Source: Burkholderia sp. BCC0506
Lineage (GTDB): Bacteria; Pseudomonadota; Gammaproteobacteria; Burkholderiales; Burkholderiaceae
DNA: 64,000 bases
Direction of reading: 5' to 3'
Assembly: GCF_902833145.1 (NCBI RefSeq)
Contig: NZ_CADFEN010000001.1
Coordinates: 497,994-561,993 of the forward strand
Part shown: positions 40,782 through 42,282 of the stretch, one piece after another
How the letters are laid out: every line of letters starts with the position of its first letter
How positions within the stretch are numbered: position 1 is the first letter of the stretch
The notes under the pieces: model-generated
What the model saw: the letters and a program-made list of their open reading frames with translations, nothing else
What the model was told of the DNA's origin: nothing
Databases searched by the model: none
Made by a program: the position numbers and the translations under genes

Positions 40782-41072
40782 TCAGCGACGTGCGCGCCGT
40801 TCGCGATCCGGATCGCCGCTCGCCCCCGCTCGATATCGTCTGACATACCGGTCCGACACGACGGACCGTCGCTGAATCCATGCGAGCGCGAGTTCGAGCG
40901 CCTGGTCGCCTGCTTCGCGGGTATCGGCGAAGTCGCCGTCGACGCCGAGCGTCCGGGTTTCACCGTCGCGATCCGTGAGGATCGCCGTCGCCGAATAGCG
41001 GCCCGTCTCCGTGTCGGTCACCACGGCCCGAACCGCATATCCGCCATGTTCGATCGTCCTGTTGGTCTGCAT
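40782..41072 (-). CDS. conserved-looking small protein downstream of hsp20 genes
   Basis: A 96-residue protein of unknown function. ATG 41072 has an excellent AGGAGG site six bases upstream, which supports real coding. The sequence is a short beta-rich domain (YAVRAVVTDTETGRYSATAI, LTDRDGETRTLGVDGDF) followed by a helix with an ALAWIQRR segment and a basic tail. It lacks a signal peptide or membrane segment. It lies 142 bases after the second hsp20 gene on the same strand and may belong to the same heat-shock transcript. Confidence 0.65.
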   Translation of the reverse strand: MQTNRTIEHGGYAVRAVVTDTETGRYSATAILTDRDGETRTLGVDGDFADTREAGDQALELALAWIQRRSVVSDRYVRRYRAGASGDPDRERRARR

Positions 41073-41214: not shown

Positions 41215-41640
41215 TTATCCGGCCGTCACCTGGATCCGCCGCGGCTTCGCTTCTTCGCGTCGCGGGATGCTCAGCTTCAACACGCCGTCGCGCAGTTGCG
41301 CGTCGATCCGCGACACGTCGAAATCCGGGCTGAGCGTGAAGGCGCGCGAGAAGTGCGGATGCTGCACTTCGCCGTGCTGCAGACGCAGCCCCGACGGCGT
41401 CGGAATGACGGCTTCCGCTTCGATGGCAAGGCTGCCGTCGTGCACGCGGACGTCGAGCTTTTCGCGCGGCACGCCCGGCAGGTCCGCGTACAACGTGATG
41501 CCGTGCGCATCCTCGACGATGTCGACGGCCGGCGCGATCCGCGTGCGCGGCGTGTCGCGCTGAGCCGCCTCACGGTTCGTCACGGCCGTCTGCGTATCGG
41601 CCGGATGGGTCGTCAGTTCAGTCGTGTTCGTGTCGTTCAT
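41215..41640 (-). CDS. Hsp20-family small heat-shock protein, second copy
   Basis: A 141-residue ATP-independent holdase. A polar Thr-rich N-terminal arm of about 40 residues precedes the alpha-crystallin domain (APAVDIVEDAHGITLYADLPGV to RIDAQLRDGVLKLSIPR), with the strand-8 motif DGVLKLS and a short C-terminal extension EAKPRRIQV. ATG 41640 follows GGAGG by five bases. A 5-bp hairpin (41650-41667 region) abuts the ribosome site. It is 36 bases after the first hsp20 gene; the pair probably form mixed oligomers, as class A/B Hsp20 pairs do. Confidence 0.9.
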   Translation of the reverse strand: MNDTNTTELTTHPADTQTAVTNREAAQRDTPRTRIAPAVDIVEDAHGITLYADLPGVPREKLDVRVHDGSLAIEAEAVIPTPSGLRLQHGEVQHPHFSRAFTLSPDFDVSRIDAQLRDGVLKLSIPRREEAKPRRIQVTAG

Positions 41641-41676
41641 GATGTCCTCCGTCATGCGTTCGTGACGTTGTGCTGT

Positions 41677-42120
41677 TTACTGGACGGTGATCGCCCGCGG
41701 CTTCGATGCTTCCGACTTGCCGACGCTGATCGTCAGGCAGCCGTTCGCATATCGGGCGTCGATCTTGTCCGGGTCCGCATGCTGCGGGAGTTCGACCACG
41801 CGGCGGAACGCGCCCATGAACCGCTCGTTCGCGTAGATCCGCCGCTCGTCGTCGGTCGTGCCGTCGTCCGGGGGCGTGCGCTCGCCGCTGATCGTCAGCA
41901 GCCGGCGATCGACCGAGATATCGATCTTCGCGGGGTCGAGACCCGGCGCGAACGCGACGATCTCGATCGTGTCGTCGGTACTGCCGATATTGACCGGGGG
42001 AAACGCACCGGGCCGCGGCGCGCGCAGACTGGCCGGGAAGCCCGTGAACATGCTGGCCATCTGCCGTTGCAGGCGGTCGAATTCCGCCAGCAGATCGGAG
42101 GGGAAGAAGATATCGCTCAT
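41677..42120 (-). CDS. Hsp20-family small heat-shock protein, first copy
   Basis: A 147-residue small heat-shock protein. The N-terminal arm has FDRLQRQMASMFTGFPASLR; the alpha-crystallin domain runs from PPVNIGSTDDTIEIVAFAPGL to ARYANGCLTISVGK, with NGCLTIS as the conserved G-x-L strand; the tail is SKPRAITVQ. It holds unfolding proteins during heat stress. The AGGAG site before ATG 42120 is completely paired in a predicted 12-bp hairpin, and a sigma-32-like promoter lies about 130 bases upstream. It is the first gene of the hsp20 unit. Confidence 0.92.
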   Translation of the reverse strand: MSDIFFPSDLLAEFDRLQRQMASMFTGFPASLRAPRPGAFPPVNIGSTDDTIEIVAFAPGLDPAKIDISVDRRLLTISGERTPPDDGTTDDERRIYANERFMGAFRRVVELPQHADPDKIDARYANGCLTISVGKSEASKPRAITVQ

Positions 42121-42157
42121 GACTCGCTCCTCTTGTACCCCCTGCGAGGAACGAACC
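42121..42157 (-). ncRNA. candidate RNA thermometer hairpin in hsp20 leader
   Basis: In the leftward transcript the arm GGUUCGUUCCUC (42157-42146) can pair over its full 12 positions with GAGGAGCGAGUC (42132-42121): nine Watson-Crick and three G-U pairs, with a 13-base loop. The second arm contains the ribosome-binding site and ends right at the AUG. Full burial of the site with several weak pairs is the layout of fourU/ROSE-type thermometers known in hsp20 leaders. Folding was done by hand. Confidence 0.6.
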
Positions 42158-42253
42158 GGACCACGCGCTCCAGTTCGTCCGTCCGCGAGAGGGTCGCTGA
42201 CTAACAAATCGAAACACGCAGCGCGTCAACCGCGACTGCCTTGAGCGATACCT

Positions 42254-42282
42254 AAAATAGGATACGTCGACTGAATTTCAAG
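42254..42282 (-). promoter_or_regulatory. sigma-32-like heat-shock promoter
   Basis: Read on the minus strand, CTTGAAA (42282-42276) and CCTATTTT (42261-42254) are 14 bases apart. The RpoH consensus is CTTGAAA, 11-16 bases, CCCCATnT. It lies about 130 bases upstream of the first hsp20 start and would give a leader of about 125 bases ending in the hairpin at 42121-42157. Confidence 0.65.

Follow-up and report, generated by a model that had tools for sequence, protein, structure and literature searches.

Does the leader of an hsp20 mRNA in Burkholderia sp. BCC0506 hide its own ribosome-binding site until the cell is warmed and, if so, which part of the leader is responsible? The question arises in a 64,000-nucleotide stretch of this genome (the window), where an open reading frame of 147 amino acids on the minus strand (41677..42120; all window features below are on this strand) follows a sequence that can fold over its Shine-Dalgarno (SD) sequence. 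The reading frame matches PF00011 (E 4e-18), so that the gene is an hsp20 gene, as the original prediction had claimed. A second hsp20 gene of 146 amino acids (41215..41655), which also matches PF00011, lies 21 nt downstream of the first, and the two genes likely share one operon.

Upstream of the leader, a sigma-32-type promoter is recognised by its sequence at 42254..42282, with a -35 element CTTGAAA (42282-42276), a 14-nt spacer and a -10 element CCTATTTT (42261-42254). The consensus given for such promoters in the available text of PMC3669281 is CTTGAA-N13-18-CNCCATAT. Transcription probably starts near 42249. The presumed 5' end of the mRNA, AUCGCUCA (42242..42249), is the exact complement of UGAGCGAU at the start codon (42119-42112); this pairing, named P0, has a mean index (expected pairs divided by eight) of 0.63 at 37 C over 115 leaders. 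Since the MSD codons and the edge of the promoter may constrain both strands, P0 is treated here as a remark only.

The hairpin over the Shine-Dalgarno sequence

The original prediction described a helix of 12 pairs, nine Watson-Crick and three G-U, closed by a 13-base loop, with the whole SD in its second arm and that arm ending at the AUG. Inspection of the minus strand confirmed this description: GGUUCGUUCCUC (42157-42146) stands opposite GAGGAGCGAGUC (42132-42121) across a 13-nt loop, the 12 pairs are uninterrupted, and the 3' arm includes AGGAG (42131-42127) and abuts the AUG (42120-42118). When the leader of the window was dinucleotide-shuffled 1000 times with its SD region left intact, 1% of the shuffles had at least 12 uninterrupted pairs over the SD; such a helix is unusual, yet within chance for one leader.

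The isolated hairpin (42119-42160) has a predicted energy of -16.0 kcal/mol at 37 C and would keep the SD shut from 20 to 60 C. It is absent from the minimum-energy fold of the 125-nt leader, a structure that is identical at 25, 37 and 50 C. There, a longer upstream hairpin captures its 5' arm, and the SD region is partly paired with GAUUUGUU at 42210-42203. A shorter piece of 72 nt (42119-42190) keeps the innermost 4 or 5 pairs of the hairpin alongside the upstream one. The 125-nt leader as a whole is very stable (-61.2 kcal/mol at 37 C; z -4.96; none of 200 shuffles equally low), and its predicted SD profile is similar at all seven temperatures between 20 and 60 C.

Two kinds of result had been named beforehand as speaking against the hairpin, arms that are not conserved in relatives and a lower-energy fold that opens AGGAG. 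With regard to the arms, the hairpin as described fails, because the six closest relatives of the window retain 8-9 of the 12 pairs and none retains all 12. The lower-energy fold does exist and lacks the hairpin; it leaves the SD open only in part, with about 0.43 unpaired at 37 C. On the evidence of the six relatives we rejected the 12-bp hairpin as a conserved element. The idea of a single long stem must also be given up, since this stem is incomplete in the six closest relatives and missing from the predicted fold of the whole leader, and the structure that is conserved has several helices, two of which exclude each other and lie 5' of the hairpin's first arm and overlap it.

A conserved leader with two exclusive pairings

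The conserved unit is the whole leader of about 130 nt downstream of the sigma-32-type promoter, made up of a hairpin, P1, and four segments named a, b, c and d, of which d is the SD. In the window, P1 (GCAG-CGCG / CGCG-CUGC) occupies 42218..42239. Segment a (GUGUUUCGAUUUGUUAGUC, 42199..42217) can form a wobble-rich helix with segment b (GACGGACGAACUGGAGCGC, 42165..42183) and, when free, can pair with d. Segment b can alternatively pair, through its middle part GGACGAAC, with the core of segment c (GUUCGUU, 42150..42156). We refer to the state with b on a as AB and to the state with c on b as BC; in state AB a longer stretch of c (42157-42146) can pair with segment d (42121..42132), which contains AGGAG. 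The 12-bp hairpin is the window's version of this c:d pairing, and the original prediction had seen one arm of the element.

The Hsp20 protein of the window was matched in 61 of the 65 genomes of the genus that were searched. A total of 88 hsp20 leaders were fetched, 34 of them were kept for holding one motif and layout, and these were used to build a covariance model, R1, of P1 and a:b; the window matches R1 at 42150..42240 with 87.4 bits, its sequence (L005) being among the 34 used to build the model. R1 matches were found in 36 of the 65 genomes of the genus and, at E up to 0.1, in 159 of 398 genomes and 10 of 25 genera of the family. A draw of 300 genomes from the whole order contained five with a match at E up to 0.01; of the two that are not members of the family, G661 matches strongly (E 1.6e-11) and G551 weakly and in part (E 0.007). 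In a draw of 274 genomes from the class only the window's own genome had a match. A pattern search of the DNA of named genomes returned at least 119 stretches; the 80 matches listed belong to Burkholderia, Paraburkholderia, Caballeronia, Cupriavidus, Ralstonia, Mycetohabitans, Robbsia and one Bordetella MAG. The sets of leaders overlap between searches, so that some leaders come from one and the same organism.

Among 192 aligned rows, which include 11 low-scoring rows, truncated loci and repeats of the same genomes, an open reading frame of at least 100 amino acids is in place in 156, and 145 of these 156 look like Hsp20. TTGA(A/G) is present upstream in all 145 hsp20-like rows, followed 10-26 nt later by CTA in 138 of them.

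Other reading frames were also observed behind the element. The window's own genome has a second copy (G000:C23:13566-13656; L123:301-391, L286) before an arginine-rich reading frame of 107 amino acids (MNDPFF...), whose start resembles Hsp20 by eye and for which Pfam gave nothing at E up to 1; similar 107-aa reading frames follow the element in other genomes of the genus (L124, L125, L126 and L158). Weaker copies were detected before reading frames of 56-86 amino acids in Caballeronia, Paraburkholderia and Burkholderia (L102:125-221, L203, L220, L225, L231, L232 and L127). Several of these short products are basic and some start in an MS(D/N)L...LFERLHR-like manner; they may be small proteins induced by heat, or hsp20 remnants. 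The window also carries, after its two hsp20 genes, a 96-aa reading frame (MQTNRTIEHGG..., 40782-41072) whose sole Pfam match lies below the cut-off, and at L128 a 127-aa reading frame behind a remnant of the element has 69% identity to it over 84 positions.

A second class of leaders is present in the genus and comprises 42 of the other 54 leaders fetched (loci between L018 and L092), including the leader of the second hsp20 pair of the window's genome. These leaders keep the GC-rich first hairpin and mostly have a short pair of the GUUUC...GGAGC type in place of a:b; the rest of the element is missing. The pair is exactly GUUUC/GGAGC in 18 of the 42 and UUUUC/GGAGA in one, and several are broken (GUAUC, GGAAA), that of the window's genome included; these counts favour pairing, the best partner having been taken within a short stretch. 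This class may be a shorter relative of the element.

Pairing in the element itself was counted in 99 distinct sequences. P1 is paired in 97.2% of cells and shows changes on both sides in three of its eight pairs. The a:b helix is paired in 94.3% of cells of alignment A4, against 34-49% when the partners are slid by 1-3 columns, a count that is biased because A4 was fitted to a model containing a:b; in alignment A2 (34 sequences, MAFFT), which was made without structure, P1 and a:b are jointly 98.2% paired. Eighteen of the 19 positions of a:b are paired in 87-99 of the 99 sequences, and the remaining one carries G.U in 12 and a mismatch, mostly A.C, in 86. Wobble pairs predominate at seven positions. 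At two positions of the helix (A4 columns 65-83 with 119-137), 66:136 and 76:126, the pair is UG in 99 of 99 sequences and never Watson-Crick; either selection favours a weak helix, or another factor recognises these letters. The b:c helix uses the same b and lies outside the model; it is paired in 93.1% of cells, against 21-47% for slid partners, and 46 of its cells show double changes, including 24 from GC to AU and 14 from CG to UA. The two helices exclude each other through the shared b, and both are retained in the 99 sequences.

Covariation was evaluated in three ways. A ranking of 3272 column pairs in alignment A3 placed a:b at rank 4, P1 at rank 5 and b:c at rank 6, while ranks 1-3 belong to no helix and reflect lineage signal; for this ranking 81 sequences were left of 100 matches, after the 11 lowest (24.2 bits or less), five duplicates and then L127, L128 and L159 had been dropped. 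Against shuffles, the cells paired, the cells with double changes and the scores of both a:b and b:c stand out (0 of 500 each), and the number of pairs with double changes in A4 does not, as 346 of 500 shuffles for a:b and 415 of 500 for b:c were as high. Since lineages dominate such data, we did not rely on covariation by shuffling only and added a count along a tree of 121 different hsp20 genes out of the 145, with 14 pairs tested. Double changes from one pair to another were found in a:b at 68:125 (two) and 57:135 (one), in P1 at 9:42 (one) and in b:c at 128:157 and 130:155 (one each). In addition, a:b position 58:134 shifts once from A.C to G.U, b:c position 129:156 has two double changes that each begin or end outside a standard pair, and b:c position 133:152 has one in which the pair is broken. 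Six of the 14 pairs had no double change, and the uncorrected p values ranged from 0.0037 to 0.16. The pairing is clearly conserved; independent covariation gives modest support, less for b:c than for a:b.

Predicted balance between the two states

Free folding of 115 leaders at 37 C (3 of the 118 were left out because the SD or motif was not located) gave a:b as the prevailing helix in 58 and b:c in 52, the probabilities of the two correlating at -0.94. When each state was forced in 114 leaders (4 of 118 left out), the median difference dG(BC-AB) was +0.63 kcal/mol at 37 C, and 74 of the 114 leaders were within 3 kcal/mol. The mean unpaired fraction of the SD at this temperature is predicted to be 0.21 in AB and 0.33 in BC, a small gain, and the SD is more open in BC than in AB in 86 of 114 leaders at 37 C and in 99 of 114 at 45 C. 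The share of the SD that is paired with the stretch between c and the SD falls from 0.77 in AB to 0.15 in BC at 37 C; in BC, pairing with a and with the loop that follows a accounts for another 0.32. From 20 to 45 C, the predicted balance moves toward BC in 83 of the 114 leaders, by a small mean of -1.3 kcal/mol over these 25 C, and changes sign toward BC in 16 leaders and toward AB in three.

The window itself is not balanced. Its leader favours BC by 5.4-5.8 kcal/mol from 20 to 45 C with a shift of only -0.4 kcal/mol, so that folding kinetics, a protein or tertiary contacts would be needed to reach AB there; in two relatives, L007 and L009, AB and BC are almost equal in predicted energy. Folding of growing prefixes of the window leader gave a:b first (probability 0.95-1.00), which was then replaced by b:c once c appeared.

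In a random draw of 45 of the 118 leaders, 31 fold below all 20 of their own shuffles, and opening the SD is not significantly more costly than in shuffled sequences (4.68 vs 4.40 kcal/mol, p 0.40). The E. coli ibpA leader also fails this SD-opening test (2.48 kcal/mol for the real leader, 4.54 for the mean of shuffles); because ibpA carries a known ROSE thermometer, the test is uninformative for thermometers.

It is very likely that these hsp20 mRNAs carry a conserved structured leader RNA, and the leader probably controls translation by temperature. What the computation provides is a set of conserved helices, near-equal predicted energies, an SD that is more hidden in AB and a direction for the predicted temperature shift. 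Our preferred reading, which we hold with somewhat less than even confidence, is that the leader is a cis-acting element of sigma-32-type hsp20 mRNAs in the Burkholderiaceae in which translation start would be set by two exclusive folds and switched on by heat. In state AB, the long wobble-rich a:b helix would leave c free for d, in the window as the 12-bp hairpin, and translation would be reduced. In state BC, c would displace the upper half of a from b; by doing so it would be lost as a partner to d, which would become freer or, in some leaders, come to lie partly on a. Warming would favour BC, and hsp20 mRNA would be better read in the heat. Formation of these folds in the cell, their exchange under heat and the response of translation are inferred.

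The geometry of the leader allows a more specific and doubtful version of this reading. The lower half of b is separated from c by 8 nt in 115 of 116 leaders (with the end of the match to the model standing for c, and 2 of 118 dropped), and the a:b loop, the distance from c to the SD and P1 all vary among the same 116. As a free duplex at 37 C the lower a:b helix has a predicted energy of -5.7 kcal/mol (7 pairs) or -10.1 kcal/mol (9 pairs). The lower a:b and b:c can coexist solely as an H-type pseudoknot in which b is one continuous strand, and the fixed 8-nt link is compatible with this and equally with a protein site. The leaders would then form a beta-proteobacterial family of bistable heat-on thermoswitches of small heat shock protein (sHSP) genes, whose ON state would be a pseudoknot with the lower a:b kept and c on the upper half, heat moving the branch point by strand displacement and freeing the SD. 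This version leans on the 8-nt link and on the nearly invariant lower a:b.

Known thermometers and alternative readings

The element of the window has no match in Rfam, and no match was found at the gathering score for 13 element loci and four other hsp20 leaders. The ROSE elements in Rfam include RF00435 and RF01832. No ROSE model matched the window region or eight relative loci, even with E values up to 10 allowed; the positive control, E. coli ibpA, was found as RF01832 ROSE_2 with 100.4 bits. The ROSE motif is U(U/C)GCU, which pairs imperfectly with the SD and has a bulged G, as given in the available text of PMC11342760. Before the SD, this motif is present in 23 of 118 leaders and NGCUG in 35 more, and 60, that of the window included, have neither. 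Membership in ROSE was rejected, as there is no curated Rfam match at the loci tried and U(U/C)GCU is missing in the window and in 95 of the 118 leaders.

The claim that the element is distinct from ROSE stands in so far as it lies apart from the curated ROSE models; the layout of a single stem, offered as the difference, is not supported. Also supported are the pairing of an anti-SD with the SD, for one conformer, the structured hsp20 leader with its sigma-32-type promoter and the lack of an Rfam match at the loci tried; the 12-bp stem is not the conserved unit. In state AB the element may act in the manner of a ROSE thermometer, although by the tests made it is not a member. It shares with ROSE and ROSE-like elements the sHSP gene, the sigma-32-type promoter and a leader of about 100 nt or more. 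A row of hairpins that ends in one holding the SD, as in ROSE, is predicted for state AB, which is not the state favoured in the window. The element differs from ROSE in having two conserved exclusive helices. It is found in the Burkholderiaceae, whereas the available text of PMC3669281, PMC10474464 and PMC4166951 places ROSE elements of sHSP genes in alpha- and gamma-proteobacteria; ROSE-like candidates before ABC transporter genes are described also in beta-proteobacteria in the accessible part of PMC11342760.

Other known systems resemble the element in part. Two exclusive folds alter access to the ribosome site with temperature in cspA mRNA and lambda cIII (according to the available text of PMC4166951), and the element, compared with them by description only, is likewise predicted to have two mutually exclusive folds that differ in SD access; unlike cspA, which is cold-induced, and cIII, which is lowered in heat, it is predicted to be switched on by heat and stands before hsp20. 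Viewed as a two-state thermoswitch, it has exclusive conserved folds of similar energy and different SD access by prediction and conservation, the window itself being unbalanced. The Synechocystis hsp17 thermometer is also an sHSP leader with the SD within a hairpin, one short hairpin of 46 nt in the available text of PMC4166951, while the element has about 130 nt and would exchange partners. A fourU thermometer places four consecutive U opposite the SD. In the window, the anti-SD is UUCCUC and there is no run of four U between b and d. A literature search, with subscription journals mostly outside its coverage, returned no publication on the hsp20 leader element among the matches listed.

The similarity to ROSE raises the alternative, in our view unlikely, that the leader is an ordinary ROSE-like zipper, a row of hairpins as in AB (P1, a:b and c:d) of which heat melts the last, SD-bearing one, with b:c incidental. 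The order of hairpins in AB, the U(U/C)GCU or NGCUG motifs in some of the leaders, and the sHSP gene with its sigma-32-type promoter, as in the ROSE-like elements of Pseudomonas (PMC3669281, available text), all agree with this, but b:c is a conserved helix in which both strands have changed, about half of the leaders have neither motif, and the window region and eight relatives gave no ROSE match at E up to 10, while E. coli ibpA was detected. A binding protein is an improbable answer: the nearly invariant GUGUUUCG...UGGAGCGCG would be bound, for instance by Hsp20 itself in feedback repression, and temperature would act through titration of the protein. By analogy with E. coli IbpA, which represses its own mRNA via the 5' UTR (PMC10474464, available text), the leader of an sHSP mRNA would be a possible target of its own product; in that text the autoregulation is demonstrated in gamma-proteobacteria, and the case of the element is in the Burkholderiaceae. 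The invariant UG pairs of a:b, which exceed what pairing requires, and the constant 8-nt link would suit a binding site, but part of the conservation is already accounted for by the alternative pairing.

A further reading is a structured leader without temperature sensing. Such a leader would serve mRNA stability or act as a constant brake on translation, with heat control wholly at the promoter; the sigma-32-type -35 upstream of every hsp20-like row, an SD opening energy not above that of shuffles and the small predicted effect of temperature fit it, yet we judge it quite improbable because two exclusive conserved helices are hard to account for in this way. Finally, the 12-bp hairpin alone might be a simple thermometer in the strain of the window. 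Its 12 pairs over the whole SD, rare in shuffles, its stability in isolation and the persistence of its innermost pairs in the 72-nt piece favour this, but folding of the full leader predicts other pairs in its place, the SD is paired with the stretch between c and the SD at 0.00 in the free fold of the window at 37 C, the six closest relatives do not retain it, and in isolation it is still closed at 60 C; we consider it very improbable.

In the available text of PMC3669281, PMC10474464 and PMC4166951, sHSP thermometers are named for alpha- and gamma-proteobacteria and for cyanobacteria, not for beta-proteobacteria, and a conserved leader of the Burkholderiaceae, which has no Rfam match at the loci tried, would fill this gap. 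If the exclusive helices are real, exchange of partners between AB and BC would make the hsp20 leader a heat-on switch that goes beyond mere melting.
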